A stretch of DNA of 64,000 nucleotides from a bacterium HR28 (GTDB lineage Bacteria; Chloroflexota; Chloroflexia; Thermomicrobiales; Thermomicrobiaceae): the NCBI GenBank assembly GCA_002898255.1, contig BEIE01000002.1, positions 62,001-126,000 on the forward strand, read 5' to 3'. The position numbers and the translations under genes are program-made. A model generated the notes under the pieces. It saw nothing but the letters and a program-made list of their open reading frames with translations. It was not told the DNA's origin and did no database searches. Each line of letters starts with the position of its first letter. Position 1 is the stretch's first letter. This document shows positions 6,867 through 22,277 of the stretch, piece by piece.

Positions 6867-8267
6867 TCAGCTACGGTAGCGCGCTGGCCCGCGGCCACTG
6901 GCACGTTCTTTATTCAGACGCCGGTTCAGATGGAGGCCCTCAAGGACGAACTCTACCGCTGCCGCGACCAGAGCCGGATCACCAGTCGCCCCCAGCCGTT
7001 GCGCCGCCCGCCGCAGACTCTCAATGTGCGATACCTGGTGCACATACCGCATCGCCGGCTGCAAGTCAGACGCCTCGACCGTGAGTCCATTTTCAAAGGC
7101 GAGGAGAAGATCATCGAAGTCACGAACCGAGAAGTAGCGGTTGAAGGTCGCCGCTACCGCCCCATTAATCAATTTTTCGATGATCCGCTCTTCCTGCACC
7201 TCGCCCAACGTCTCGAACTCGAGTTTCCCAAGCGTCGAGGCAATGAGTGCAGGCAAGTCGCTGATCCGGGGTACGGCATGCTTCTCCCCGAGCCGGATCG
7301 CTCGCTTCACTGCATTACTCACCAGTGTCTCATAGTTCGCCACCGACATACGGGCACTCACGCCTGACCGCTGGCTGATATCCGGGCTGCGCCGAGCCAG
7401 GTGCGTGATTTCGGCAACAATCTCACGCATGTACTGCGGCACCGTCACCGTGATTCCCGGGACCTCCACTGGCGTTCGCTCTTGCTCCATGATCTGAATC
7501 TCGTGCTCAATCGTCCGTGGATAATGCGTCCGGATTTGCGCTCCAAAGCGATCCTTCAGCGGCGTGATGATCCGACCGCGGTTCGTATAGTCCTCCGGAT
7601 TGGCGCTCGCCACCACGAAAATGTCCAGCGGCAGGCGTACCCGATACCCGCGGATCTGGACATCACGCTCCTCCATGATGTTGAGCAACCCTACCTGGAT
7701 CCGCTCGGCAAGATCCGGGAGCTCATTGATGACGAAAATACCTCGGTTCGTCCGCGGGATTAGCCCATAGTGAATAGTCAATTCATCCGAAAGATATCGC
7801 CCCTCTGCCACTTTAATCGGATCGATCTCACCAATCAGATCAGCAATTGTGGTATCGGGCGTGGCCAACTTCTCAGCATAGCGTTCCTCGCGCCGAATCC
7901 ACGCGATGGGCGTTTCATCACCCATCTCGGCGATCAGATCACGCGCATACTTGGAAATCGGCGCAAATGGATTATCGTTCACTTCGCTTCCAGCGACGAT
8001 CGGAATTTCTTCATCAAGGAGATTTACCAGGAGCCGAGCCATCCGCGTCTTGGCCTGCCCACGCTCCCCCAGGAAGATGATGTCCTGCCCAGCCAGAATC
8101 GCGTTCTCCACCTGCGGGATCACCGTCTCCTCGTACCCGATAATCCCCTCGAAGATCGGTTCCCCCGCCTGGATCTTGGCAATCAGGTTCTTCCGCATCT
8201 CCTCCCGTACTGGAAGGACACGGTAACCGCTCTCGCGTAGCTCGCCCAGCGTTCGTGGCTTGTCCAT
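6867..8267 (-). CDS. MoxR/ChlI-like AAA+ ATPase
   Basis: A 466-residue ATPase of the helix-2-insert AAA+ clade (magnesium chelatase ChlI / MoxR). Walker A is GERGQAKT at residues 67-74. The Walker B region reads GIFVINELPDL, with Asn-Glu in place of the usual Asp-Glu, and FVVASANPEDY carries the sensor-1 asparagine. The family couples ATP hydrolysis to remodelling through a VWA partner, which is encoded next. The frame extends to 8354, but the ATG at 8267 follows GGAGGTCGAGGGTTAGG, and the following MDKPRTLGEL fits family N-termini. It starts 28 bases after the upstream P-loop ATPase gene. Confidence 0.9.
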   Translation of the reverse strand: MDKPRTLGELRESGYRVLPVREEMRKNLIAKIQAGEPIFEGIIGYEETVIPQVENAILAGQDIIFLGERGQAKTRMARLLVNLLDEEIPIVAGSEVNDNPFAPISKYARDLIAEMGDETPIAWIRREERYAEKLATPDTTIADLIGEIDPIKVAEGRYLSDELTIHYGLIPRTNRGIFVINELPDLAERIQVGLLNIMEERDVQIRGYRVRLPLDIFVVASANPEDYTNRGRIITPLKDRFGAQIRTHYPRTIEHEIQIMEQERTPVEVPGITVTVPQYMREIVAEITHLARRSPDISQRSGVSARMSVANYETLVSNAVKRAIRLGEKHAVPRISDLPALIASTLGKLEFETLGEVQEERIIEKLINGAVAATFNRYFSVRDFDDLLLAFENGLTVEASDLQPAMRYVHQVSHIESLRRAAQRLGATGDPALVAAAVEFVLEGLHLNRRLNKERASGRGPARYRS

Positions 8268-8295
8268 CCTAACCCTCGACCTCCGTGCGCTTGTT

Positions 8296-9204
8296 TCATC
8301 CCTGGTTCGCCTCTGGTGTCCCCTCAATCCTACTCTCCTCGTAGGCCCCGTCAACTTCTTCTGTTAACTTACGCGCACGAAGTTCTGCGAGCACCGCCCG
8401 GAAGGCGGCCAGTCCACGAATCCCCTGGGTAACCCACCGGGCCAGTTGCCGCTGCCGCCAGGCCAGCTGACGACTCGCCTCTTCAAGGGACAGACCAAAA
8501 CGCTCTGTCAGCGTCGCCAGGAACGCAGCTGGATAGACAGCCAAGGATGACCGCAGTGTTTCACGTCTGGCCAGTACATGCGTCGCGAGCTCGGCTCCAC
8601 GTACTCGGACAGCTTCTACGCAAACAACGCGACGAAGTAGGCCCTCGTTGGTGATACCCATCCCAAGCGTCACGACCACATCGATGGCGCGCAGGTGTTC
8701 AGTGGGCACCTCCAGAGGAAAGCCTTGCAACAACGAGAACACCTCTTCCGCGCCCTGCGCATGCACCGTCGCTCCCAAACGCCAACCCTCGGCCAACAAG
8801 GCAAAAACCCGTCGCACCCCTCTCCCCCAGAGGTAGATAGGCAAGTGGTCACTGATCTCGTTGACGAGGAGGTACGTCGTGCCAGGATCGTGGGTTGTGA
8901 CAAAGTCAAAGCGCTCGTACCAGCCACGCAGGTAGTACCGCTTCGTCTCAGGCGGAAGCAACTCCACTAACGCACTCAGGAGCGTTGTCTTCCCCGCTCC
9001 GTGTTCGCGTGCGGCAACGAGAACCGTTGCCCGCTGCTCGAGTGCCATCCAGAGGAAGGCAGCAGTCGCGGCATCAAGACTCCCTAGCCGGACCAGATCG
9101 ACCAGGGACAGGTCACTGCCAGAACCAACACCAAACCTTCCCCACCAGTCGGTTGAGGGGAAATGTGCAGCATCCTCTTCGCTAAAGCGCCACCGTCGTT
9201 CCAC
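8296..9204 (-). CDS. P-loop ATPase related to type II/IV secretion ATPases (VirB11/CpaF-like)
   Basis: A 302-residue protein with Walker A AREHGAGKT at residues 65-73, an aspartate/glutamate region around LLVNEISDHLP, and GATVHAQGAEEVFSLLQGFP. The last element resembles the ATxHA histidine segment of VirB11/CpaF-type secretion ATPases. It lacks the large N-terminal domain of true secretion ATPases and has an extra helical, arginine-rich C-terminus. It heads an operon with the MoxR and VWA genes. No pilin or secretion genes are nearby, so its task is probably something other than secretion; that is an inference. Confidence 0.75.
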   Translation of the reverse strand: MERRWRFSEEDAAHFPSTDWWGRFGVGSGSDLSLVDLVRLGSLDAATAAFLWMALEQRATVLVAAREHGAGKTTLLSALVELLPPETKRYYLRGWYERFDFVTTHDPGTTYLLVNEISDHLPIYLWGRGVRRVFALLAEGWRLGATVHAQGAEEVFSLLQGFPLEVPTEHLRAIDVVVTLGMGITNEGLLRRVVCVEAVRVRGAELATHVLARRETLRSSLAVYPAAFLATLTERFGLSLEEASRQLAWRQRQLARWVTQGIRGLAAFRAVLAELRARKLTEEVDGAYEESRIEGTPEANQG

Positions 9205-9217
9205 GCTCCCAACTATA

Positions 9218-9255
9218 CATGCCGGTGAGGCAGGTCAGCCCTCCTCACCGGCATG
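9218..9255. terminator. 13-bp perfect hairpin between citrate synthase and the ATPase operon
   Basis: Arms at 9218-9230 and 9243-9255 (CATGCCGGTGAGG and its exact complement) enclose a 12-base loop. The hairpin lies just downstream of gltA on the minus strand and just upstream of the ATPase operon. No T-run follows it in either direction. It may end gltA transcripts or be an operator for the operon. Confidence 0.6.
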
Positions 9256-9271
9256 GATCTTAAGGCGTCTC

Positions 9272-10384
9272 CTATCCACGCTGGTCGATCGGCACGTAAT
9301 GCCGATTGGTCGACCCCACATACTCCGCCCGCGGTCGAATCAGACGGTTGTCTGCCTGCTGTTCCAAAATGTGCGCTGTCCACCCGCTAATGCGGCTTGC
9401 GGCAAAGACCGGCGTCATCAGCTCCTTCTCAATCCCGAGATAGTGGTAAACCGACGCCGCATAGAAATCAACGTTGGGGAACAGTCCCTTCTCGCGTGCC
9501 ATCACGTCGGCAATGGCGACAGAAAGCTCATACCAGCGCAAGTCACCCCGCGCCTCACCAAGCCGCCGCGAGAGATCGCGTAGCCACTTCGCCCGCGGAT
9601 CCTCGCCCTTATACACGCGGTGCCCAAAGCCCATGATCCGTTCTTTCCGTGCCAGCTTTTCCTTAATATAGGGCTCCACCTGGTCAAGTGTCCCAATCTC
9701 TTCCAACATCTGCATGACCGCCGCATTCGCACCACCATGCAACGGTCCCTTCAGCGCCGCAATCGCCGCCGTGACCGCCGCATGCATATCCGCCAGCGTT
9801 GCTGCGACTACTCGTGCGGTAAAGGTCGAAGCGTTGAACTCGTGGTCCGCGTGGAGAACCAGAATCTTGTTCATCGCCTCCACTTCGAGCTCGCTGGGCT
9901 CACGGTCATGCAACGTGCGCAAGAACGCCCGAGCGGTGCTCATCTCGTCAACTGGCGGCACCACCGGCTCGAGACCACGACGCAGGCGAGCGATCGTGGC
10001 CACAATCGTTGGCACCTGCGCCACCAAACGCAGCCCCTTGGCAACAGCCGCCTCGCGCGCGACGGTATTCGGATCCTCCTCGTACCAGGCCAGTGCCGAG
10101 ACTGCTGTCCTCAAGAGATCCATCGGCACCGCCTGTGGCGCCCTAGCCAGCAGTTGGACAACTCCGTCCGGCAGCGCCCGTTGCACCGCGAGTTGCTGCT
10201 GCAGCGCCGCCAACTGCTCACGCGTCGGCAGTTCCCCATAGTACAGCAGGTAGACCACCTCTTCGTAGGACGCCTCGGCAGCCAGCTCGTCGATCTCGAT
10301 CCCTACATAGGCCAAGGTGCCATCGATGATCGAGCTGAGCCGCGTGGTTCCCGCCACAACCCCTTCCAGACCTCGAGCCACCAT
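9272..10384 (-). CDS. gltA: Citrate synthase
   Basis: A 370-residue type I citrate synthase of the short (about 370-380 residue) Gram-positive/archaeal form, condensing oxaloacetate and acetyl-CoA at entry to the TCA cycle. The catalytic histidines sit in LKGPLHGGAN and MGFGHRVYKGEDPRA, and the catalytic aspartate in FPNVDFYAASVY. HADHEFNAST is also conserved. The ATG at 10384 is preceded by GGAGGAGGAC. 2-Methylcitrate synthase is a close relative and cannot be fully excluded, but no prp genes are nearby. Confidence 0.95.
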   Translation of the reverse strand: MVARGLEGVVAGTTRLSSIIDGTLAYVGIEIDELAAEASYEEVVYLLYYGELPTREQLAALQQQLAVQRALPDGVVQLLARAPQAVPMDLLRTAVSALAWYEEDPNTVAREAAVAKGLRLVAQVPTIVATIARLRRGLEPVVPPVDEMSTARAFLRTLHDREPSELEVEAMNKILVLHADHEFNASTFTARVVAATLADMHAAVTAAIAALKGPLHGGANAAVMQMLEEIGTLDQVEPYIKEKLARKERIMGFGHRVYKGEDPRAKWLRDLSRRLGEARGDLRWYELSVAIADVMAREKGLFPNVDFYAASVYHYLGIEKELMTPVFAASRISGWTAHILEQQADNRLIRPRAEYVGSTNRHYVPIDQRG

Positions 10385-10408
10385 CGCCGTCCTCCTCCAC
10401 CCACATCG

Positions 10409-10443
10409 CTTGACGAAGCTGGACGTTCCTTGACGAAGCTGGA
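10409..10443. promoter_or_regulatory. Two direct 15-bp repeats upstream of citrate synthase (possible operator)
   Basis: CTTGACGAAGCTGGA occurs at 10409-10423 and again at 10429-10443, an exact repeat with a 20-bp period (about two helical turns). It lies 25-59 bases upstream of the gltA start codon. Same-face tandem repeats here fit a regulator site; no regulator gene is adjacent. Confidence 0.45.
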
Positions 10444-10976
10444 ACGCCCACCGCTACCTTTACCGCATGATGACTCCGGTGTAAAGCTCTTCAACAAGGT
10501 CAGCGATGACGCGGTCAGCACCCTGCAAGCACCAGCGTTCCCTCCGCCTCTCCATCCCACCGCAGAGGCTGGCTCCACCAGCGTCAGCCGCCCGTTGGAC
10601 GCAAGCACGCACAACGCGCTCTTCGTTAATATCGCTCTTCCACGACAGAGTCTTCCGCTTTCGACCGGAGTGAACGCCCGCAGGGAACGCTGACCTCCCC
10701 TTGCATCAGCGCTAGACTGCCACTTCACCTGGCGTGCGAGGAAAGCAACACTGTCGCCAATGTTGTCGAGGCGTCCACCGGCGTGTTCAACTTGCCCCAC
10801 AGAAGTCTCATGACGTGCCCGCACTTGACACGGGGCAAGGCACTCGTCTGCACTCGACGAGATGCACCGCACTTGCCGCGGGAAAAACGACCTCGTGACC
10901 TGTCTGATCAGCAACGCGAAAGCCGTCAGAAAGAATGAAAGAGAAAGCGACGGACAGTCTCAAAGGAGCAGTACCG
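10444..10976. other. Intergenic region between gltA and the TTQ-like cluster
   Basis: These bases separate the divergent gltA (-) and the first propeller gene (+), and hold the promoters of both. A TTGACA-like box near 10825 has no good -10 partner. No gene is supported. Confidence 0.5.
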
Positions 10977-12197
10977 ATGAGCCTTGTCGTGGACACCGTG
11001 CGTCAACCGCGCCACCTTCGCCTGGTAACCCTCGGGCTCAGTGTCCTCGCACTCCTCACGTCCCTTATCTGGCTCACCAACCGCAGTGAGCGATGGACGC
11101 TTGGCAGCTGGACCGATCACTCGGCAACAGGGAAGCCGATAGTCTTGGCCCAGACGAACTCCACATTCATTGCCATCGATCCGTACACCGGAACCGTCGT
11201 ATCCCAACATCCAGGTGGTGCCGCTCTCTTAGCTGCCAGTGCCAATGGCCAACAGGTGATCGCTGCGACCGACGATGAGCTCATTGTCTACCGGCTCCCT
11301 GACTGGGCAGTCGCGTATCGTTTGCCTCTCGATAACCAACTCCCGAACCTTTACCAACTCGCGACCTACCACCCTGATTTGCAACGGGCCAAGCCACGGC
11401 CGGTCACCTTGGAAGTTGATCCCACTGGACGCTACGCCGCTGTCGGTTTCGTCTCTATGGGCGAGCACCCTGATCCAGCCTTCCTGGACACTCCCCCGTG
11501 GATCCTCTGGGTCACTGCCGTTGACCTGCAGCATGGCACTTGGTTGCCTTGGATTCACCCCCTTCCTGGCACCGACTGGGTCTACATCGTCCCAACTCCC
11601 GAAAAACTGTTCCTCGCCGGTAGCCCCATTGCCGCCACGTCCCAACCGCTCTCTCTTGGGACACTCCTCGCGCTCGATCCGACTACCGGCCAGGTGCAGA
11701 GTCAGTTGACGCTTCCCGGGCTGTCACCTGTTCCCTTGAACACCTCTGAAGGGGGACGCCATCCACGTATCGCCGCAGTCCGTTTCTTCGGTGACCAGCT
11801 GCTGGTCGCCACTGAGCAGCTTGAGGTGTTCGTTGTCGATCCAGGCACGCTCCAGGTGACCCGTCAAGTCGCTCCGCTCAGCCCGACCATCCTGGTCCGG
11901 GGCGCACAGGTGTGGTTGACGACTGAGCGTCTCGTCGCGCTGACACAGACCTCTGAGTTGATCCAAGCCGACCTCGTCAGTGGGCAAATTGTCGCCCGCC
12001 GTTCCCTCCCAACAGACTGGACAGCCGAGCTCGTCACCTTCCTGCCTGACGAGCACGTTGCGCTGTTGCTCCTCTCCAATGGCCTTCCCGGCTGCCTAGT
12101 CCGTGTTCCGTTCCAGGGAGAGATCGAGCAGCTCCTCTGTGGTCTCGACACGAATCTCTACGAGCGCCGGTTCGCTGTGACCGGGGGGATCGGATGA
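10977..12197 (+). CDS. Membrane-anchored beta-propeller protein, heavy-chain-like 1
   Basis: A 406-residue protein with one N-terminal membrane helix (LVTLGLSVLALLTSLIWLT, about residues 16-35) and an extracytoplasmic domain of repeated WD/YVTN-like blades (FIAIDPYTGTVV, TLEVDPTGRYAAVGF, LLALDPTTGQVQ, VFVVDPGTLQV). The blade plan and position directly before an amine dehydrogenase light-chain-like gene suggest the role of the MauB/AauB heavy chain. Sequence identity to those is not obvious by eye, so this is an inference from context. Start chosen at 10977 because of AAAGGAGC upstream; the frame is open to 10935. Its TGA overlaps the ATG of the next leader (ATGATGA). It shares block PPWILWVTAVDLQHGTW and a late Cys pair with its two paralogues. 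Confidence 0.75.
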   Translation: MSLVVDTVRQPRHLRLVTLGLSVLALLTSLIWLTNRSERWTLGSWTDHSATGKPIVLAQTNSTFIAIDPYTGTVVSQHPGGAALLAASANGQQVIAATDDELIVYRLPDWAVAYRLPLDNQLPNLYQLATYHPDLQRAKPRPVTLEVDPTGRYAAVGFVSMGEHPDPAFLDTPPWILWVTAVDLQHGTWLPWIHPLPGTDWVYIVPTPEKLFLAGSPIAATSQPLSLGTLLALDPTTGQVQSQLTLPGLSPVPLNTSEGGRHPRIAAVRFFGDQLLVATEQLEVFVVDPGTLQVTRQVAPLSPTILVRGAQVWLTTERLVALTQTSELIQADLVSGQIVARRSLPTDWTAELVTFLPDEHVALLLLSNGLPGCLVRVPFQGEIEQLLCGLDTNLYERRFAVTGGIG

Positions 12198-12608
12198 TGA
12201 GATTGACCCGGCGCACCACTCTGCACCTTGAGCACCCTCGCCACTGCACTTGTCAACCTGCTTGTCCCGCTGCCAGCCAATGCCCAGCTCACCTGCAGCG
12301 ACTGGCGTTTCTGTGGTCACTGTGGCTGTCGCTGTACCTGCCGGGGCGGTGGTGACTCGACCTGTCCGTCCGGAAGCTCACCTGGAGGGGCGTGGTACGT
12401 CTGCTGCCGTGATACCCAAGGGCGCTTCTGGCTCGTCCGCTACCGCGATTGCTGCCGGCCCAGACAGCCAGGTGAGACATCCTGCCCCAGCCCGCTCAGT
12501 GGCTGCCCCTCCTCCTGTGCCTGCCAGGACGGTTGTCCCCAACCACATTGGTGCCCAACCGGCTACTGTGCCGTCTGTACCCAGACGCAGATCTGGGCAA
12601 CCTGTTGA
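12194..12608 (+). CDS. Amine dehydrogenase light-chain-like protein 1 (TTQ type), leader frameshifted
   Basis: The mature part (frame from 12228, 126 codons from a TTG) closely follows the methylamine dehydrogenase light chain. Matching elements are CSDWRFC, CTCRGGG, TCPSG, then Trp56 in GGAWYVCC, Asp74 in RYRDCC and Trp108 in HWC. The two tryptophans align with those that form tryptophan tryptophylquinone (betaTrp57 and betaTrp108 in Paracoccus). About 20 cysteines are present. Upstream, ATG at 12194/12197 overlaps the previous stop and opens a different frame encoding MMRLTRRTTLH, a twin-arginine start. The two frames join if one base is removed near 12224-12230, so the assembled gene has a one-base insertion within its Tat signal or is truly frameshifted. 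Confidence 0.82.
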
Positions 12609-12714
12609 TCAGGTGTGACCAATGACACTACTCGACCTTACCAACGCAGCCCCGTCGAACTCCACTGGAAAAAACCTCTTTTCGCCCACGTCTACTGCTG
12701 GCCATTCTGCGAGA

Positions 12715-12742
12715 GGTTGCTCGCGAAGCACCTGGAGCAACC
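12715..12742 (+). other. 8-bp hairpin between light-chain-like genes 1 and 2
   Basis: GGTTGCTC at 12715-12722 pairs with GAGCAACC at 12735-12742 across 12 bases, 107 bases after the light-chain 1 stop and 64 before the next start. It could be an RNA-processing or partial termination site that sets different expression of the pairs. Confidence 0.35.
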
Positions 12743-12805
12743 GGCGCTGTCTGCTGAGCAAGCTCACGTCCGTCGGAAAAGATAGAGCTAGGGAGAACTT
12801 TTCCG

Positions 12806-13252
12806 ATGTCGCACTGGAATGCTCCGATCGGTGCCGGCCGGGAAAAGCGTTCCACTCGGCGCAGCTGGGTGCAGCGCCTGGCTGTCGTGTTACTGGCCAT
12901 TGGGGCGACTTTCAGCGATCACCCGCCCCTCTCCGCCCAGGCGAACTGTGGCCAGTGGCACCGGTGCGGTATGTGTGGTTGTTTGTGCTCTTGCCTTGGC
13001 GGGAGCGATACCGCCTGCCCACCAGGAACGTCGCCAGGCGGCGCATGGTGGGTCTGCTGTTACGCGAGCGGCCGTTGGTGGTTGATTCGCTATCTCGACT
13101 GCTGTGGCCCGAAAAACAGCCAGCCTGCCTGCCCATCCGGCTGCTCCTGCAACCAGCGGTGTGGCCAGCCACCGGCCAACCAAAACTGGTGCCCGAACCC
13201 AGAAAGCAACGGAGCCTACTGTACCCGCGCCCAGGTCTGGTCACAGTGTTAA
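12806..13252 (+). CDS. Amine dehydrogenase light-chain-like protein 2 (TTQ type)
   Basis: A 148-residue secreted protein. The leader carries a Tat-like STRRSWVQRLAVVLLAIG (Arg18-Arg19) and is probably cleaved near SAQA-N (about residue 46). The mature part matches the MauA pattern: CGQWHRC, CSCLGGSD, ACPPG, Trp81 in GGAWWVCC, Asp98 in RYLDCCG and Trp128 in QNWC. Trp81 and Trp128 are the expected TTQ pair and Asp98 the expected catalytic base (betaAsp76 of Paracoccus). Position of betaAsp32 is a cysteine. The ATG has a GGGAGAAC ribosome site. It is followed 42 bases later by heavy-chain-like 2. Activity cannot be judged from sequence. Confidence 0.85.
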   Translation: MSHWNAPIGAGREKRSTRRSWVQRLAVVLLAIGATFSDHPPLSAQANCGQWHRCGMCGCLCSCLGGSDTACPPGTSPGGAWWVCCYASGRWWLIRYLDCCGPKNSQPACPSGCSCNQRCGQPPANQNWCPNPESNGAYCTRAQVWSQC

Positions 13253-13294
13253 CGCCGTGGTGAGAGCGAGGAAAGGCATGACGGGAGGAACTTT

Positions 13295-14596
13295 ATGAAA
13301 GCAGTCGCCACGCTCACTCCGTCTCTGAGGCCTAGTGCGCGAGGAGCCCTGGCTGCACTGGTCGTCTTGCTGCTGGCTCTCGCAGCACTGCTCTTCCTAC
13401 GCCCGCTCTCGGGCTCCCATCGAGCTTCGAGCGGATCGCTCGAAGCGGGTACTCCGCTTCTCCTCGCACCAGTCGGAGAAGCACCAAGCCCTTCCCTCGC
13501 CGTGCAGCACACCGGATTAGTACTCCTGGATGCCCGGACAGGCAGCGTCCGCAACCGTTTCACCTTCTCTGAGCCCAATGAGGTCATCCGCGGCTATCTC
13601 CTCCCAGGAGGAGTCCAGGTGCTCCTTTACCGTGCACCGCTGGAAACGAACGCGACCACATACCCGAGTCTCGAACTCTGGCGCGTGAGCCATTGGACAG
13701 TCGAGCGCAGCGTCCCTATCACCCCTGACATTGCACCCGTTCGCATCCTCGCTGCCCAGTATCCCTCAACGGCGGGCCAGACTCCCACTGTTCTTGATTT
13801 GGCCAGCGACCCGGCCGGCCACTGGGTGGCTGTGGCCTTTTGGTCCATGGCCACTCCATACTCTGACGGCACACGCAGCCAATTGGTCTGGGTCACTTCT
13901 CTTGACCTCCAAACAGGACAATGGGCACCATGGGTCTACCCACTCCCCTCAAGCCAGACGGTTTCGCTTCTTGCGTTGTCCGACCGTATCCTTGTGCTTG
14001 CCCACACTCTGCGCACCACCACGCGCCACACGGTTGCCAATCTTGTTTCCCTTGATCCCAGAAACGGGACGGTCCTCGCTGAGCTGCCGCTGGAAAGTTG
14101 GTCTGTGCAGGGCAAGCCGCTCGACGAGGACCCCTCGAGTCCTCACAACACTTTCTCCGCTGCCCTCGCGCCTCAGGTCTGGAACAATCGCATCCTGGTT
14201 GTCACCGATGACCTCGAACTCTTCCTCATCGACCCCAGGAGCCTGAGACTGGTAGAACACCGCCCACCGCTCGCCGATCGCCTCGTTGTCGGCGGTCGCC
14301 CGTACCTGATTGGAGACCTCCTCGTTCTTGTTGGTCAGTCGCTCTGGGTTCTCGACGTCAGCAACTGGCGAGTGATGACCACTTTTCCGTTACCAACCAT
14401 TCCGGAAGGGAACTGGTTACTCGCTGGCGTAGACACTGCGCAGCGGACAGCCTTCCTCCTTAACACGAAGGAAGGTTGCTTGCGGAACCTCGACCTGAGC
14501 AGCGGAACCCTCAGCGAGCCGTTGCACTGCAACCTCGCGCTCGATTACCCGGCTCCGCTCTTCGGCTGGCCAGCATTTGCCACCGGCGCGCCTTGA
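13295..14596 (+). CDS. Membrane-anchored beta-propeller protein, heavy-chain-like 2
   Basis: A 433-residue paralogue of the protein at 10977. An N-terminal membrane helix (ALAALVVLLLALAALLFL, about residues 18-35) leads into propeller blades. Family blocks shared by all three paralogues are LVWVTSLDLQTGQWAPW, DDLELFLIDPRSL and, near the end, GCLRNLDLSSGTLSEPLHC, a cysteine pair that may be a disulfide. The ATG follows GGGAGGAAC. Its order relative to its light chain (light then heavy) is opposite to pair 1. A heavy-chain role is inferred from context. Confidence 0.76.
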   Translation: MKAVATLTPSLRPSARGALAALVVLLLALAALLFLRPLSGSHRASSGSLEAGTPLLLAPVGEAPSPSLAVQHTGLVLLDARTGSVRNRFTFSEPNEVIRGYLLPGGVQVLLYRAPLETNATTYPSLELWRVSHWTVERSVPITPDIAPVRILAAQYPSTAGQTPTVLDLASDPAGHWVAVAFWSMATPYSDGTRSQLVWVTSLDLQTGQWAPWVYPLPSSQTVSLLALSDRILVLAHTLRTTTRHTVANLVSLDPRNGTVLAELPLESWSVQGKPLDEDPSSPHNTFSAALAPQVWNNRILVVTDDLELFLIDPRSLRLVEHRPPLADRLVVGGRPYLIGDLLVLVGQSLWVLDVSNWRVMTTFPLPTIPEGNWLLAGVDTAQRTAFLLNTKEGCLRNLDLSSGTLSEPLHCNLALDYPAPLFGWPAFATGAP

Positions 14597-14765
14597 GCTT
14601 TCGCCGGAATCGCTCGTGCCTTCCCTATGGACCTAGCCGCAGTCCACTTTGACCGGGGAACGGATGAGTTTCACCAAGCGGCACGGTCCATCCTTGATCT
14701 CGTGCTCTGGCCGCGCGTCGCGCGGGTACGGTGGGCAGCCAGCTTACTCTAGCCGACGCAGCGAG

Positions 14766-14791
14766 GGACACGCCCACTTTTGGGCGTGTCC
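14766..14791 (+). terminator. 11-bp hairpin after heavy-chain-like 2
   Basis: GGACACGCCCA (14766-14776), a CTTT loop and the exact complement at 14781-14791, 170 bases past the stop at 14596. No T-tract follows. It probably ends or attenuates the first two pairs, making pair 3 with MauE/MauD a separately controlled unit. The surrounding 14597-14930 interval has no gene. Confidence 0.6.
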
Positions 14792-14930
14792 ACCAACTGT
14801 CTCTGCACTGTGCCCTCTTCGATTTCATCGTGCAACCGAGAAGATGCGCCTGCGACGGCGTGCTGCCTGTCTGATTCCTCAACCGAGATACGTCAAAATT
14901 TGCGAGACGAGTAAGTAGGCAAGGTATGAG

Positions 14931-15353
14931 ATGAAGCGCCGCTCCCCTGCTCAGCAACACATCCTAACGACCCGGCGCGACTGGATGCGGAGACTCCTGG
15001 CAGCCTTTGCCGGGACTGTCGCATTTGTGACCCAACCAGCACCTATGGTGGCCCAGAGCTGTCAGGATTGGTTCCGCTGTAACCAGTGGGGGTGCCTCTG
15101 CTCATGTCGCGGTGGTAGCGATTATTCCTGTCCCCCGGGAACGACGAGCAGTACGCAAGCTTGGTTCTCCTGTTGTTACGATCAGGTTCGTCGCAAGCTC
15201 TTCCTCATCCGCTACATCGATTGCTGCCAATCGACTCCGCCGCCAGCCTGTCCTTCGGGGTGCTCCTGTGCCCGGGGGTCATATCAGCCGAACTGGTGCG
15301 GTAATGGACGTCACGTCGTCTGTACTCGCGCCGTACTGGTCAATGTGTGCTGA
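14931..15353 (+). CDS. Amine dehydrogenase light-chain-like protein 3 (TTQ type)
   Basis: A 140-residue secreted protein with a clear Tat leader, LTTRRDWMRRLLAAFAG (Arg15-Arg16), and likely cleavage around VAQS (residues 40-43). The mature part has CQDWFRC, CSCRGGSD, SCPPG, Trp78 in TQAWFSCC, Asp97 in RYIDCC and Trp122 in PNWC. Trp78 and Trp122 align with the TTQ tryptophans. The residue matching betaAsp32 of methylamine dehydrogenase is Trp53. Of the three light chains this one has the fewest extra cysteines. It lies 50 bases before the propeller-MauE fusion. Ribosome site is weak (AGGTATGAG). Confidence 0.85.
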   Translation: MKRRSPAQQHILTTRRDWMRRLLAAFAGTVAFVTQPAPMVAQSCQDWFRCNQWGCLCSCRGGSDYSCPPGTTSSTQAWFSCCYDQVRRKLFLIRYIDCCQSTPPPACPSGCSCARGSYQPNWCGNGRHVVCTRAVLVNVC

Positions 15354-15403
15354 AGGACGACCGCTCGCTGCTAAGACGAGTGCCATGAGAAAGGAGCCCA
15401 GCG

Positions 15404-17188
15404 ATGCAGATGAGTTGGCTGTACGCAACACCCCTGAGAGAGAGACGAACGGCGGTCATCGTCCCTCTGTTCTTGTCCATCATGCTCATACTTTTGAGTC
15501 TTGTCGCTTCCTCTGCTGCCCGCGTGTCGGGAACGTCCGCCGCGAACCCGATCCTCCTCAGCCCCGCCGGCACGGATGGACAAGAACTGCTCATCCTCGA
15601 TCCGCGCTCCGGTACCGTTCTCAACCGAATCCCAAACCAGAATTACGGAATTTACCAAGCCTTTGTGTCACCACGCGGAGACCGGGCGCTCATTGAGTAC
15701 GTCGAGGAACGAGAGGGAACGCCATCCATTCGACTTGAGCTGCGGACTCTTCCGGATTGGTCTCTCCTGGCACAGTTTCCGGTCGACTACACGATCCCAC
15801 CACTCGCGCCGCTCGCAGCCGAGGCACCCGCCGGGGCGAACCCGTCGCTCTTCACCGTTGCCTTCTCGAGTGACGGGGATCTTGCCGCGGTCGCCTTCTT
15901 CACCGGCCAAGACTGGCCGACCCTCGTGGTGACTACCCTGGACCTTGCCCACCAGCGGTGGGCTGACTGGGCTCTGACCGTTCCACGTTCCAGTTACGCC
16001 TGGCTCTTCCCATTAGAGACCCAACTTCTGGTTGTGTCCAGAGCGATGGTTCCGCTACTTTCGGGAGATCACGCCTCCATCTACTCCCTTGACCCAGTAA
16101 CCGGCGCTGTCCGCGCGGAGCTGGGTATCCGCCTGCACCGATCGCTGTTGCCCGAGCGGGGTCAAGACGTGCCGAGCACCTCGCCCGGAGTCATCGCGGT
16201 GCACCTCGATGGACCGTACCTCCGTATTCTGACGGATGATCTCACGCGGTTTAGCGTCGATGTTGGGACACTCACCCTTGTCCAAACCGATCCGGCTCTC
16301 TACGACGAACTCGCCGCTCTCAAGACCGTTTTCACTCCACACTACACCGTTGCCGCAGTGCGCCCTGACGAAATCGTCCTCATTGACAACCAGCGCTGGC
16401 AGATCACACAACAAACAAAACTTTCCTCCGACATTATGTCGTGGGAACTTGTGGGTCCCGACCCATCTCGGCCTGTTGTCTACATTGCCAGCGAGGAGGA
16501 TCAATGCCTCCGCACGCTGGACCTCTCCACCCTCGCGCTGTCCCAGCCACTTGTGTGTGCTTTATTCCTCCCCGTCGATTGGCGACACTTTTACGGTTGG
16601 CCTGATTACGCCCCAGGAGTCGTCCAGTCAGCACCTGTGCTCGCGACAACATCGTGGATGGAGAACCTTGCCTCTTTGGCTACCGCGGTCCTCGCAGCTA
16701 CTTTTGCTCTTGCGGCTCTCGGGAAAACTCTCGCCTGGCGCATAAGCGTCCAACAGCTCGGCACCATTGTCCCACAACTGAGCCGGCGAGCTAACCTGAT
16801 CCTTGCTGGACTGGTTGCCGCTGAGACAGGAACCACGGTTTTGTTGCTCTTGCCTGTGACCTCTCGTTTCGGCCTCGCCAGTGCAACAGGCCTTCTCCTC
16901 ATCTTTCTGGGTGTCTCTCTCTTCGCTGTCCGGCGGGTACCACTGCAGCCCTGCCCCTGCTTTGGGTCACTCGGTCCAGCCCTAACTGGCCGAGCCGTCA
17001 TCGTCCGTAACCTATTCCTCCTTGGCATCGCCTTCCTCGCGTGGTCACATCCTCAAGCTCCGATACTGCCCCAGATGCTTCTTGGCCTGCTGGCGGTGCT
17101 GGTCGCACTCAACGTCAGCCGCCTCGCAGCAGGGGTTACGGTCATTCGCACTGCAAGGAGGGGGACAACGTTCGATCATGCTGCCTGA
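15404..17188 (+). CDS. Beta-propeller (heavy-chain-like 3) fused to a MauE domain
   Basis: A 594-residue protein. It has an N-terminal membrane helix (about residues 18-36), an extracytoplasmic propeller to about residue 410 that is paralogous to the genes at 10977 and 13295 (shared LVVTTLDLAHQRWADW and QCLRTLDLSTLALSQPLVC), then about four membrane helices forming a MauE domain. The MauE signature CPCFG with redox-type Cys517 and Cys519 is followed by GRAVIVRN, as in the family. MauE and MauD are needed for stable, disulfide-bonded methylamine dehydrogenase light chain in Paracoccus and Methylobacterium. Here the maturation factor and the presumed structural partner are one polypeptide. The stop overlaps mauD. 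Confidence 0.82.
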   Translation: MQMSWLYATPLRERRTAVIVPLFLSIMLILLSLVASSAARVSGTSAANPILLSPAGTDGQELLILDPRSGTVLNRIPNQNYGIYQAFVSPRGDRALIEYVEEREGTPSIRLELRTLPDWSLLAQFPVDYTIPPLAPLAAEAPAGANPSLFTVAFSSDGDLAAVAFFTGQDWPTLVVTTLDLAHQRWADWALTVPRSSYAWLFPLETQLLVVSRAMVPLLSGDHASIYSLDPVTGAVRAELGIRLHRSLLPERGQDVPSTSPGVIAVHLDGPYLRILTDDLTRFSVDVGTLTLVQTDPALYDELAALKTVFTPHYTVAAVRPDEIVLIDNQRWQITQQTKLSSDIMSWELVGPDPSRPVVYIASEEDQCLRTLDLSTLALSQPLVCALFLPVDWRHFYGWPDYAPGVVQSAPVLATTSWMENLASLATAVLAATFALAALGKTLAWRISVQQLGTIVPQLSRRANLILAGLVAAETGTTVLLLLPVTSRFGLASATGLLLIFLGVSLFAVRRVPLQPCPCFGSLGPALTGRAVIVRNLFLLGIAFLAWSHPQAPILPQMLLGLLAVLVALNVSRLAAGVTVIRTARRGTTFDHAA

Positions 17189-17753
17189 TTGGCTTCCGTT
17201 GACTCTACTCGTGGTCACCTGGATCGCGCTGACAGCCGTCATTCGCATGACTGTCCAATTGGCCCAACGAGTAGGGCGACTCGAGCAGCTCGAGATGGAC
17301 GCACGAGGGCACGAGCAAGCAGTGCACGGCATCGGTGAGCCCGTGCCACCGCTTGCGGTCACCACCAGGGAGGGACACCAGCTCATCCTCGGCCAACCCC
17401 CTGTAGCCCCCGCTGTGGTGATTGCACTCAGCGGTCGCTGTCCGCCATGTCAGCCTTTCCGCGACCAACTGACAACACTCCTCGCTTGGCTTCGCCAATA
17501 CGGTGTGTTTCCAGTGCTCGCCCTGCCGACTGGTGAACCGCCCGAACAGTGGCCAGCAGGGTACGCATTCCTCACCGGAGAGAGCGCCCTTTCCGCACTT
17601 GGCCTCACGCAGTTCCCGTCATCCCTTCTGATTGATCGTGAAGGAATTCTGCGTGGCCGCGCACCTCTCCGGTCCCCTGAGGATCTCCTTGAGATCATCT
17701 CAATCGTCTTGCTCGGCCTCTCTCCAACTCAGGGAAGGACTGCCGCGCAATGA
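17178..17753 (+). CDS. mauD: MauD-like thioredoxin-fold disulfide protein
   Basis: A 191-residue membrane-anchored protein. The N-terminal helix is WLPLTLLVVTWIALTAVI, and a thioredoxin-like domain carries Cys88-Pro-Pro-Cys91 in ALSGRCPPCQPF. The GIGEPVPPLAVTTREG segment before it is characteristic of MauD. MauD is thought to form or isomerise the six disulfides of the amine dehydrogenase light chain. The frame is open to 17022, but the ATG at 17178 overlaps the end of the MauE fusion (11-base overlap) and starts with the membrane helix, so it is the likely start. With three light chains holding up to 20 cysteines each, one MauD/MauE set probably serves all. Confidence 0.85.
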   Translation: MLPDWLPLTLLVVTWIALTAVIRMTVQLAQRVGRLEQLEMDARGHEQAVHGIGEPVPPLAVTTREGHQLILGQPPVAPAVVIALSGRCPPCQPFRDQLTTLLAWLRQYGVFPVLALPTGEPPEQWPAGYAFLTGESALSALGLTQFPSSLLIDREGILRGRAPLRSPEDLLEIISIVLLGLSPTQGRTAAQ

Positions 17754-17821
17754 TTCCAAGTCTTCTGCCGCTCGCCGCAGCTTGTGGACTTGCAGCACTC
17801 TGGTCGCCTTGAGGCTACTCC

Positions 17822-18409
17822 ATGGTCGACGTGCTCGGCCCGACGATCCGACAATCAACTTTGTGGCGCCGCATCCAGCTGGCGCTCCTCCACTGTGGGG
17901 GTACAGTGCTGGGCGGTCTCTTTTGCGGCCTTCTGTTGCGTTGGCTTGGCCAGGTGCTGCTTCCCTTCGAGCTTGAGAGGACCGCTCATACCTGGCTAAC
18001 GGTCGTCGTGCTCGTCCTTGCCCTAGTCGCTGACCTGACGGTAGGCCGGTGGCGAACACGGAGCCTCATCCACCGTCAGGTCCCGCCTCGTCTCTTTGCA
18101 AGGGGAGCAGCATGTGCCAGCTTCGCGTGGGGTCTTGAGCTCGGGATTGGCCTGAGCACCCGCTGGCCTTCTCTCCAGCTTGTTGGGCTCGCAGCACTGT
18201 CTCTCCTGACCGGTAATCCGCTCAGCAGCGCTCTGCTCTTCGGTAGCTTTGGCTTGACACGTGGCCTCGCCACCATCACTGGAGCTTGGCTTCTCTGGGG
18301 CAGGCACACATCGCCAGGAGCCACCTGGCTGATAGCTGGCCAGCGTCGCCTACGACTCCTGCCTTCCCTCGCTGCTGTCGGCTGCATCACCCTCCTTGTC
18401 TACACTTAA
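17822..18409 (+). CDS. Integral membrane protein of unknown function in the TTQ-like cluster
   Basis: A 195-residue protein with about five to six hydrophobic segments (for example LLHCGGTVLGGLFCGLLLRW, LTVVVLVLALVADLTV and LQLVGLAALSLLTG) and a basic C-terminal loop. I do not recognise a family. Position after mauD suggests a membrane role in the same system, comparable in place to MauF of classical clusters, but no sequence match is claimed. The ATG follows TTGAGGCTACTCC. It begins 68 bases after mauD and ends just before the sigma factor. Confidence 0.68.
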   Translation: MVDVLGPTIRQSTLWRRIQLALLHCGGTVLGGLFCGLLLRWLGQVLLPFELERTAHTWLTVVVLVLALVADLTVGRWRTRSLIHRQVPPRLFARGAACASFAWGLELGIGLSTRWPSLQLVGLAALSLLTGNPLSSALLFGSFGLTRGLATITGAWLLWGRHTSPGATWLIAGQRRLRLLPSLAAVGCITLLVYT

Positions 18410-18443
18410 GGCAACGGCCCATGAAAAGGGGATCAAACAGGCG

Positions 18444-19193
18444 ATGCGACACGCAAAGACAACCCTCTGGGTTTTTGCGGCTTTCTACCTTGCTCTTCTT
18501 CTGACGTCTTGGTCCGTGACTGAATCCTCACTCGACTGCGAACCTCCTCGGTCCTGCCACCAGCATCCCCCACCTCCTCAAGCGAATCCCTGCCAACCCA
18601 GAATCGCCACCAAACGTCGCCGCAGAGAGGAGCAAAGCGAGCAAGACGACCTGTCGGAACGCGCGCTGATTGAGCAAGCCATCGCCGGCGATTCGCAGGC
18701 TTTCGGCTCTCTCGTGGAGCGTTATATGAGTACCGTGAAGGCGTACTTGACCCGACTCGGAGTACCCCAACCCGAGCACGACGATCTGGTTCAGGACGTA
18801 TTTACCAAAGCCTGGTCAGCTCGAGCTCAGCTTCGCGACGTCGAAGCATTCTCCCACTGGCTCTTGACCATCACCCGCCGCTGCTGGATCGACGCATTGC
18901 GCTCCCGCCACGCCGAACAGCGGGCTCTCGAGCGCTGGTTACGTGACCAACTCCGTTGCCCCGGGACACCCGACCCTTCCGACGAGGAAGTCGATCTCCT
19001 CCTCCGGGCGTTCGACGCGCTCCGCCCAGCCGATCGCGAGATACTGCTCCTCCGCTGGGAAGGAGATCGCTCCATCCAGGAACTCGCTTCCCTGCTCGGC
19101 ATCTCACCGACAGCAGCCCAGCGCCGAGCTCACCGCGCACTCTCTCGTCTGCGTGAAATGTTCACACGCTTGAGGCACCAGCCTGGATCGTGA
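18444..19193 (+). CDS. ECF-type RNA polymerase sigma factor with an N-terminal membrane-like segment
   Basis: Sigma-70 region 2 spans about residues 70-150 (FGSLVERYMSTVKAYL, HDDLVQDVFTKAW) and region 4 about residues 185-240 (LRPADREILLLRW, IQELASLLGISPTAAQRRAH). These domains direct RNA polymerase to specific promoters. The open frame extends upstream into a hydrophobic segment (TTLWVFAAFYLALLLTSW, residues 6-23) and a Pro/Cys-rich linker, which is unusual for a sigma factor. The ATG at 18444 has AAGGGG upstream. There is no ATG or GTG between this segment and region 2, so either the protein is membrane-tethered or the sigma factor starts at a rare codon. It may control the preceding cluster. 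Confidence 0.78.
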   Translation: MRHAKTTLWVFAAFYLALLLTSWSVTESSLDCEPPRSCHQHPPPPQANPCQPRIATKRRRREEQSEQDDLSERALIEQAIAGDSQAFGSLVERYMSTVKAYLTRLGVPQPEHDDLVQDVFTKAWSARAQLRDVEAFSHWLLTITRRCWIDALRSRHAEQRALERWLRDQLRCPGTPDPSDEEVDLLLRAFDALRPADREILLLRWEGDRSIQELASLLGISPTAAQRRAHRALSRLREMFTRLRHQPGS

Positions 19194-19611
19194 ATCAGCC
19201 ACGCACAGGCCACACAGCGCCACCCGGCGCGATTTCTCGCCCCCCCACCAGTCCTTGCAATTGGTCCGCCACGCTTTTCTCCTCACGACGCTCGTGATCG
19301 GTCACAGCTCTGGCACTCCGGTCTCCCAGACCACCGACCGTTCGTGGTGTTCGCCGTCGTCTCCGTTGTCTTCCTTCGCAAGGCTCTACGCCCCTGCCGC
19401 AGTCGTGGTCCGAGTACCCCGCGCACGGCTGCCCCGACCGGACGAAAGGCGTGCCGTGGACTTCGCAAGCACGCCCGACCCAGCTAATGGCTCGTGGGCT
19501 GAACCGCTCATACCTTGACGAACTCGAGTGAACCAGCGCCCTGCTGTCGTGCTGAGAAAGGCTGGTATACTCGCCCCAAGGTCCGTTCTGTCAACACGCC
19601 AGGGACGAAGC
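19194..19611. other. Gene-poor interval before the DoxX-type gene
   Basis: About 420 bases without a supported gene or clear hairpin. The end carries an AGGGACGAAG ribosome site for the next gene. Confidence 0.45.
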
Positions 19612-20703
19612 ATGAAGCACTCGCAACGGGCACATCGGTGGATTTTCGTAATCTCCTTCGCACTCGTCCTTGCGCTCTATCCCGCCAGTACGAGTGCGCA
19701 CGTGCGGTGGTTCGTGCCCGAAGGCCTGGAACTTCGTCCCCCTGAATGGCAGCTTTTCTGGCGCTGGCCAACAGCCGCTGTTGTTGCGACCAGCGCGCTT
19801 CTCTGGCTTGCCTTGCGCGCACTACAGCACCTGGTCGGGAGTCGTCATTGGCCGAATCCCCCACTGCTCGCCAGCATGGAACCCTGTGCCACACGCGTGT
19901 TAGCGCTACATGCCGGGATCAGCTTGGTCTGGTTCGCCTACTAGCGGGAACTCTTCGCGCCGCCGCTGACACTCCCAAACTCAGTGCTCGGCTGGCTGCT
20001 CCTGGCAGCGACTATTGTCGTGGCCTTCACCTTTATTTCAGGACTCTTTGACCGCGCCGGAGCACTTCTCTTGATCGTCCTGTACGGCCTTGCCTTCGTC
20101 GTGTTCCCTCCGGTCGCGGTGCTCGAGCAGCTGCACTTTCTCGGGATCGCGCTTGTACTGCTTGTCCTTGGTCAGACGATCCCACCTGTTCGAGTGGCAA
20201 GGCACCTTATCGGCTTGAGCCGGTACGAACGCCAGTCGGTCGCTGCGCTCCGCATCCTGACCGGTTCCGCATTGCTCATCACGGCATTCACCGAAAAGCT
20301 GCTCAACCCCGAACTCAGCACCGTCTTCCTTGCGCAGTACGCGCATTTCAACGTGTTGCGGAGTCTCTTCGGTTGGAGCTGGTTCTCAGACCGATTCTTT
20401 GGCGACCTTGCGGGCATCGTCGAGGCAACCATCGGGATCCTGCTCATCTCAGGTGTCCTCACCCGCGTCGTCATACTCGCGATGTGGGTCCCGTTTAACC
20501 TGACCGTGCCGCTCTTGCCACCCGTCGAGCTGCTCGGTCATCTCCCGATCTTCGGTATCACGTACCTCTTACTTCTCTACGGTTCTGGGGTATCTCCGCA
20601 GACAGCTCTGCGCTGGCTCCAGCCGGCGTTCACCGGGGAGCTCGCCGCAGCGCACCAGCGGCTTGGCGAAGATCCGACCACACAAAGAGACCACTCAACG
20701 TGA
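19612..20703 (+). pseudogene. DoxX-like membrane protein interrupted by an in-frame TAG
   Basis: One continuous frame is broken only by TAG at 19942-19944. The first part (110 codons) has a signal-like helix and the sequence AHVRWFVPEGLELRPPEW, then a second helix. After the TAG the same frame continues without a shift (RELFAPPLTLPNSVLGWLLL) for another 253 codons with about six membrane helices, including ALRILTGSALLITAFTEKLL and GIVEATIGILLISGVLTRVVI, which fit the DoxX/DoxD group. A single CAG-to-TAG change would explain it. Either the gene is inactive, two parts are made separately (an ATG/GTG restart such as GTG near 19984 is possible), or there is a sequencing error. Confidence 0.7.
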
Positions 20704-20714
20704 GAGACTGTCCC

Positions 20715-21008
20715 TCAGGCCGCTTCAGACCCGAATTCCGGTTCGAGCAATCCGAGCTCGGCAAGCACCAGCGCGCGATGCTTGCAGTAGCGGTAGTACG
20801 CACTCCCCGGACATGAGCAGAGAAGATCCCCGTCGAGGAACGTCACTTCGTAGGCTACGCCAGACTGGCTTGCGCTCGTCACCGCCCAGTGCCGCGGGTC
20901 ACCATTCAGACGATAAGCCCGAACTCCTTCACGGCGCGCCCGCTCCGCCATCCGCTGCCAAATGGCCAGATCAATCTCTCTCCACGACGATAGCCGCATC
21001 GTTGCCAC
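20715..21008 (-). CDS. SWIM zinc-finger protein
   Basis: A 97-residue protein with a complete SWIM zinc-binding motif: Cys64-x-Cys66, then Cys75-x-His77 (LLCSCPGSA and YCKHRAL). The N-terminal part forms a small beta domain (RAYRLNGDPRHWAVTSAS) typical of bacterial SWIM proteins. These motifs bind DNA or proteins, and the exact role is unknown. Its stop lies 11 bases from the converging DoxX-type gene. Confidence 0.85.
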   Translation of the reverse strand: MATMRLSSWREIDLAIWQRMAERARREGVRAYRLNGDPRHWAVTSASQSGVAYEVTFLDGDLLCSCPGSAYYRYCKHRALVLAELGLLEPEFGSEAA

Positions 21009-21288
21009 TCAACGCTCCAACATTCTGTCTAGTTCCCGTCCGCAAGTATACCAATCGCTGTCGCCGCGATGATGGCCGTCGCACAGCGTGCTCGCAGCAC
21101 GACAGCTGCACAGTGTTTCCGCAAGTTGTCCAAACAGAGACGGACACGAAAATTGGACAACACCACTGGAGGCCAGAGCCATCTCTCCGCAGCATGGTCC
21201 GTCAGGCCACGACTGCTCTTTGGCCGGCTTCTCACCGTTGGTGGTAGCATCGGCAAGAACGTACCGAGCCGAGGGTGAGGTCCTCACC

Positions 21289-21855
21289 GTGACACAGCTG
21301 CTGCCAACACTGCACCGTTTTACGATTGACGACCTCGAGCGGATGGTTACCGCCGGCATCCTGCGACCAGATGACCGCGTGGAACTTATCGAGGGAGAGC
21401 TCATCGATTTGGTTCCCATAAGCTGGCCCCACCAAGCGTGTGTCGATCGCTTGGCCGAATTATTTGTTCGCCACGTCGGTAGGCTGGCGATCGTTCGTAT
21501 TCAAGGGCCGATCCGCTTGAGCGAGCGTTCCCTCCCCCAGCCTGATCTTGCTTTGCTTCGCCCTCAACAAGACGATTACGCTGAAGCTGCACCCACCCCA
21601 GCCGATGTCCTCTTGATCGTTGAAGTGAGCGATACCACTCTTCCCTATGACAGGGATACGAAAGTGCCATTGTACGCCCGCTATGGTATCCCCGAGGTCT
21701 GGCTCGTGGACCTGACTGGCCAACGGGTTTTGCTCTTCCGAGCTCCCCATGCCGAGGGCTATCGCGACCAAGACGAACTGCGATCGTGGGATGTAGTATC
21801 CCCAGTTGCTTTTCCTGACCTCTCTATCCCCCTCACCAACATTCTGGCCCCATGA
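21289..21855 (+). CDS. Uma2-family (DUF820) PD-(D/E)XK protein
   Basis: A 188-residue protein of the Uma2 family, which has a restriction-endonuclease-like fold and is abundant in Chloroflexi and cyanobacteria. Visible elements are RPDDRVELIEGELIDL, a catalytic Asp in LPQPDLALLRP, Glu in LLIVEVSDTTLPYD and the following RDTKVPLYARYGIPEVWLVD. The frame is open to 21088, but the GTG at 21289 is preceded by GAGGGTGAGG and matches the usual start position before the FTIDDLERM segment. The natural role of the family is not established. Confidence 0.88.
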   Translation: MTQLLPTLHRFTIDDLERMVTAGILRPDDRVELIEGELIDLVPISWPHQACVDRLAELFVRHVGRLAIVRIQGPIRLSERSLPQPDLALLRPQQDDYAEAAPTPADVLLIVEVSDTTLPYDRDTKVPLYARYGIPEVWLVDLTGQRVLLFRAPHAEGYRDQDELRSWDVVSPVAFPDLSIPLTNILAP

Positions 21856-22277
21856 CCGGTTCCTTGAATGGCAACAGCGGAAATGCGCCGTTCACCCGTC
21901 TTTCCGCTCCATCCGTTGGCTTGGCCACGTGACAGCGTGTGAGCCCCAAGCGTCAGCTGGCCTTGCCAAGCGCAACCGCACAGCACCACTTCACTTCGGC
22001 GCGAGCATCACCTACAGTACCCTCGCACCGACCTCCCGTTTCTGGCGAGGTACACCGCGGTGCCCATGTCCATCGCACCCTCACTGTGAAACTTCCCCCG
22101 CCCGCAAGACCACTAGCTTGTGCTGCCCCCTCTGCCGACGGCCAGTCACCGAATAAGCGCCGCCACTCGGTTCAGTATGCCCCCGCCACATTCTGCACAC
22201 TTGTCCCCGAGCAGCGGATCAACCAGGTGACCCTCAGGTGAATACTGAGTCAACCAACACATCAGCGCCCCTCCACG
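21856..22277. other. Intergenic region upstream of lpdA
   Basis: About 420 bases without a supported gene. Long antisense open frames begin here but are shadows of the lpdA codon pattern. Confidence 0.45.

Follow-up and report, generated by a model that had tools for sequence, protein, structure and literature searches.

Thermomicrobium light chains of the MauA family that lack Asp32: probable extra disulfides and a possible MauG-independent cofactor

Here, we describe three genes for light chains of the methylamine dehydrogenase type (P1, P2 and P3) in a 64,000-nucleotide window of the genome of bacterium HR28 (3.12 Mb; positions 62001-126000 of contig 2, BEIE01000002.1; all coordinates below are window positions). 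Asp32 of MauA is replaced in all three, and cysteines are added that most likely form disulfides. Together with their relatives in Thermomicrobium, the proteins appear to represent a diverged variant of the MauA family and may carry a Trp57-Trp108 cofactor of the tryptophan tryptophylquinone (TTQ) type that arises independently of MauG. We give this reading as a whole (divergent MauA lineage, extra disulfides, putative MauG-independent cofactor), which is built on sequence comparison, an even chance of being correct. Among the papers searched, none dealt with these Thermomicrobium proteins.

The three reading frames (12228-12608, 12806-13252 and 14931-15353) match the Pfam profile PF02975 (Me-amine-dh_L) with 27.7, 38.1 and 42.3 bits, respectively, at a curated cut-off of 25, and score 24.5, 33.8 and 49.9 bits against TIGR02659, the equivalog profile of the methylamine dehydrogenase light chain, far under its cut-off of 196.85 bits. 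Trp57, Asp76, Trp108 and Thr122 are kept in each. At the site of Asp32, the codons are TGT in P1 and P2 and TGG in P3 (Table 1), bearing out the Cys, Cys and Trp read there in the preliminary description of this DNA; an alignment artefact was rejected because P3 and Paracoccus MauA align without gaps around the site, from C23 to about C86.

Light chains of Thermomicrobium were collected by profile from six genomes of the genus and from T. roseum, and 15 were aligned. The canonical set is a sample of 111 sequences from Proteobacteria and Myxococcota, taken from among the matches listed by a genome scan with a DNA pattern. That pattern demanded C46, P47, G49, W57, C61, Y74, D76, C77 and C78, whose conservation in this set is therefore by construction; Asp32, Trp108, Thr122 and W26 were not required. 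Site 32 is Asp in 103 of these listed sequences, Ser in 7 and Gly in 1. Among the 15 Thermomicrobium light chains, it is Cys in 6, Trp in 3, Ser in 2, and Gln, Gly, His or Arg in one each; Asp, the residue expected of a TTQ-dependent amine dehydrogenase, occurs in none, so that the alignment with MauA- and AauA-type proteins and Chloroflexota relatives proposed in the preliminary description upholds its account of the site. In G247, a distant relative from Chloroflexota, the site is His. Judging from the spread of C, W, S, Q, G, H and R among the 15, site 32 varies freely within Thermomicrobium and no new residue has taken it over; C32 was accordingly rejected as a conserved new catalytic residue. 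Trp57 and Asp76 are present in 15 of 15 sequences, the latter as previously claimed, Trp108 in 14 and Thr122 in 14 or 15. Each of the seven Thermomicrobium genomes that yielded light chains has one of the P3 type, and in the tree the genus and G247 are set apart from all canonical sequences by a long branch (support 100/99). No match to PF02975 was obtained in 392 Planctomycetota genomes, where L031 is a divergent pattern match below the family cut-off. Two other positions stand out. At position 43, where MauA has Leu, all aligned light chains of the genus have Asp, as does G247 (L015 7194-7643); at position 73, Arg is without exception within the genus alone. A new functional role is conceivable for each of the two, and Asp43 was considered as a replacement carboxylate.

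Asp32 and Asp76 are reportedly both critical in methylamine dehydrogenase, as the title of a 2005 study by Jones is said to put it, and the preliminary description took both as necessary for TTQ formation. The Asp32 half of that premise is weakened by eight canonical light chains with Ser or Gly at the site (L021, L037, L066, L073, L080, L088, L108 and L114), which come from two gammaproteobacterial clades at separate positions in the tree. Like the Thermomicrobium proteins, they keep Trp57, Asp76 and Trp108; unlike them, they are otherwise canonical and AauA-like, lie elsewhere in the tree and, where flanking sequence was available, belong to aau-type operons with relatives of AauB, AauE, AauD and cytochromes (tblastn with AauB and MauB gave matches in five of these loci). 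In Pseudohongiella (L108 5905-7939), an AauA-like light chain with Ser32 stands side by side with a cytochrome and with a homologue of MauG (39.8% identity to Paracoccus denitrificans MauG, E 5e-79). Because the exceptions fall in two places of the tree and one adjoins MauG, the comparison indicates that loss of Asp32 is natural, took place at least twice and can go together with a MauG operon; a strict tie between loss of Asp32 and loss of MauG was rejected on the evidence of L108 and of the loci with Asp32, most of which have no diheme open reading frame nearby. Nor is Asp32 a strict mark of membership, being absent from 8 of the 111 listed canonical sequences too.

Extra cysteines had been noted in all three light chains, and this stands: relative to MauA, P1, P2 and P3 all add C34, C60 (Ser60 in MauA), the third cysteine of A-C-P-S-G-C-x-C before C88, and C130, and P1 and P2 alone add C32 and a partner cysteine. 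The C-x-C-x-C-x-C run once regarded as an addition is new as regards C32 and C34; its C36 and C38 are normal MauA cysteines. The totals in the mature parts (Table 1) compare with mostly 14, and in some cases 12 or 10, in canonical proteins. Cysteine number is even in 110 of 112 sampled sequences, the two exceptions being L128, whose N-terminus is cut, and the very divergent L031; odd numbers within the genus belong to four copies, each short of one cysteine. As a control for pairing, C38 and C86 are both present in 98 of the listed canonical sequences and both absent from 13, with no discordant case, and C39 and C83 behave in the same way (102 both, 9 neither, 0 discordant). C38-C86 and C36-C121 are known disulfides of methylamine dehydrogenase. 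In the Thermomicrobium set, C32 and a cysteine located in the loop, 4-6 residues past C88, are likewise both present (6) or both absent (9) without discordance; since one P1-type copy of T. roseum has Trp32 and lacks the loop cysteine as well, the pair seems to have been lost together within the P1 type. Even counts, together with a co-presence of C32 and the loop cysteine like that of C38 and C86, make disulfides the most likely role of the extra cysteines; statements on which cysteines meet in space rest on homology and co-presence. In P. denitrificans, accessory genes of the MauE, MauD and MauF kind are needed for light-chain export and disulfide formation.

We propose that P1 to P3 would be exported light chains of a divergent MauA-family lineage, which is seen here in Thermomicrobium and in a single distant genome of Chloroflexota. 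Each light chain adjoins a propeller-like protein, and a disulfide-forming set of the MauE/MauD/MauF type is common to the cluster. The extra cysteines would raise the disulfides to a total of 8 in P3, 9 in P2 and 10 in P1. In P1 and P2, C32 would be bonded to the cysteine 4-6 residues after C88, within a shortened loop ahead of Trp108, residue 32 being otherwise free. Trp57 and Trp108, with Asp76 and Thr122, would, we infer, still yield the TTQ-type cofactor of a membrane-associated dehydrogenase, without Asp32 or a member of the MauG family.

The residues shared across the long branch bear on whether the cofactor is kept. Apart from Cys, Gly and Pro, nearly only W26, W57, Y74, D76, W108 and T/S122 are found both in the Thermomicrobium light chains and in the canonical ones; four of them belong to the cofactor and catalytic set, which argues for a retained Trp57-Trp108 cofactor. 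We place a TTQ-type cofactor in these light chains at an even call or slightly under it, and the fuller proposal, that such a cofactor forms without Asp32 and without a MauG-family enzyme in a propeller complex of a thermophile whose third propeller is fused to MauE, is advanced tentatively, as rather less than an even bet. MauG has a role in TTQ formation (PMC6405878). PF03150 (the CCP_MauG family) had no match in seven of seven Thermomicrobium genomes or in G247, with a positive control in Escherichia coli, nor in two Asp32-bearing genomes of unstated completeness. Its absence from the genus would count against a retained quinone, yet fits a MauG-independent route. The earlier suggestion that the cofactor is formed by another route holds as far as the missing Asp32 and the lack of a MauG/CCP-family gene in seven genomes of the genus are concerned; formation itself we only infer.

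Several further observations weigh against the reading proposed here. W26 is as conserved as Trp57 and Trp108 though outside TTQ, so that conservation of the tryptophans may be structural, and in G400 the P2-type copy carries Leu in place of Trp108. Thermomicrobium has lost other positions that are conserved in Proteobacteria, namely Asn104, Tyr119 and those of the loop 92-105. Profile comparison of the propellers with MauB and AauB gave a probability of 4%, tblastn with AauB and MauB found no match here, a CxxCH heme motif is missing from every cluster protein, and a cupredoxin match was absent among those scanned. Within the genus, several copies carry a frameshift or are short of one cysteine. 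As for the disulfides, the co-presence of C32 and the loop cysteine amounts to about two independent events, and no partner was assigned to C34, C60, C130 or the third cysteine. Much of this would suit proteins that no longer carry a quinone, the MauA fold being stapled by disulfides and serving a propeller complex as its structural or binding subunit, with Trp57 and Trp108 kept for packing: Asp32 and the residues just named are gone, the MauG family was not found in the genus, no redox partner gene was seen in the cluster, the genes are multiple and often broken, the propellers have no detectable sequence relation to MauB or AauB, and the non-cofactor residue W26 is conserved just as well. 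Set against it are the invariance of Asp76 and Thr122, the scarcity of other shared residues outside Cys, Gly and Pro, and strong purifying selection; we regard the loss of the quinone as a serious possibility that falls somewhat short of an even chance.

Two further ideas of the preliminary description, a Cys-Trp crosslink and a metal site, are disfavoured by cysteine parity and co-presence. C32 takes the place of a residue that lies at the cofactor in methylamine dehydrogenase, and a thioether from C32 to a tryptophan could stand in for TTQ. Such a cofactor, cysteine tryptophylquinone (CTQ), is known in QHNDH, LodA and GoxA (PMC7876137). In the present family no cysteine is conserved at site 32 (C32 is found in 6 of 15 sequences and is absent from P3), C32 covaries perfectly with the loop cysteine and total cysteine numbers are even, all of which speaks against CTQ and makes the crosslink highly improbable. 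A metal held by the C-x-C-x-C-x-C run, for which the dense CxC spacing in P1 and P2 might speak, is hardly credible given the variable residue 32, the even counts, the paired gain and loss of the other cysteines, the MauE, MauD and MauF relatives kept in the cluster, and the place of C36 and C38 in the canonical disulfides C36-C121 and C38-C86, the second of which was recovered by co-presence.

Table 1. Positions of the light-chain genes and their neighbours in the window
Feature	Position	Strand	Remarks
H1, propeller-like, adjoins P1	10935..12197	+	weak PQQ_2 match only; relation to MauB/AauB not detectable
P1, light chain 1	12194..12608	+	native start probably ATG 12194/12197, overlapping the H1 stop; intact frame 12228-12608
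P1 cysteines			20 Cys in mature part; C32 12321-12323; predicted partner Cys 12534-12536
P2, light chain 2	12806..13252	+	twin-arginine signal; 18 Cys; C32 12974-12976; predicted partner Cys 13160-13162
H2, propeller-like	13295..14596	+	homologous to H1 and H3 (tblastn/alignment); no Pfam match
P3, light chain 3	14931..15353	+	twin-arginine signal; 16 Cys; Trp at site 32 (15087-15089)
H3, propeller-like, fused to C-terminal MauE membrane domain	15404..17188	+	PF07291, 56.9 bits
MauD-like membrane-anchored thioredoxin-fold protein	17181..17753	+	CPPC
MauF-like membrane protein	17822..18409	+	hhalign against P. denitrificans MauF: probability 90.7, E 1.2e-6
Extracytoplasmic function (ECF)-type sigma factor	18396..19193	+	N-terminal membrane-like extension; syntenic in the genus; constant neighbour of the cluster

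The same cluster lies beside the same citrate synthase gene in T. roseum DSM 5159, and other genomes of the genus to which HR28 belongs carry it too, on which grounds that genus is taken to be Thermomicrobium; whether the ECF-type sigma factor is a member of the light-chain system is uncertain. The H3-type propeller-MauE fusion recurs in G174, G182 and G166 and also in T. roseum, where it is annotated as MauE/DoxX family. PF06433, the profile of MauB/AauB-type heavy chains, had no match in the HR28 genome in a search run without a positive control. Five other cytochrome c matches lie elsewhere in this genome, and Rfam gave no match in 8000-22000. In G247 (L015 13658-15281), a second MauE-MauD pair stands beside another cysteine-rich protein, which carries a twin-arginine leader but cannot be recognised as a light chain.

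Relative to its sister genome G174, P1 lacks five bases (TCGGT) between 12224 and 12225, a deletion that leaves the twin-arginine signal and the mature part in different frames. The TTG at 12228, given as the start of P1 in the preliminary description, is for this reason probably not the native one, and P1, its signal peptide being broken, may not be exported. The P1 copy of G174 is itself short of 62 bases and its P2 copy has a two-base frameshift; one of the five T. roseum copies is frameshifted as well. Any single one of these lesions may be an assembly error. By these comparisons, the light-chain genes turn over fast and the intact ones are under purifying selection: nonsynonymous divergence (dN) between P3 and its counterpart in G182 is 0.12 with synonymous divergence (dS) saturated, which indicates strong purifying selection, and dN/dS for P1 against G174 is 0.08. 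The T. roseum region (NC_011961.1; L137 2898-18100) holds five light-chain and several propeller copies in tandem, plus a duplicated pair of DoxX-type genes, and from its layout is a birth-and-death array of heavy/light cassettes.

With MauA of P. denitrificans, the Thermomicrobium light chains share PF02975, Trp57, Trp108, Asp76, Thr122, the canonical cysteines, the twin-arginine leader (P2 and P3) and nearby relatives of MauE, MauD and MauF; they differ in lacking Asp32, Asn104 and Tyr119, in having 16-20 cysteines against 12, and in a shortened loop 92-105, and the genome has no MauG-family gene, the cluster no visible amicyanin and no detectable MauB-type heavy chain. AauA is the best PDB match of P2 (1.3e-12), and as in the aau cluster of RW109 the light chain stands beside MauE and MauD relatives with MauG not adjacent; the C39-C83 pair, Asp32 (present in most AauA-type proteins), an AauB heavy chain and downstream monoheme cytochromes were not found here. 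A further counterpart is the orthologous cluster of T. roseum (WP_143714793.1 and four further copies on NC_011961.1), which shares the cysteine patterns, the propeller-MauE fusion and the adjoining citrate synthase gene, and differs in its five light-chain copies, one of them frameshifted; the PLSDB gene table gives the name of methylamine dehydrogenase light chain to only one of these, and NCBI already labels one copy so.

A family in nature with the two tryptophans and Asp76 retained, Asp32 lost and no MauG relative would offer a direct handle on what the cofactor truly requires, and the Asp32-less proteins of Proteobacteria, one of which shares an operon with MauG, would provide a simpler second test.

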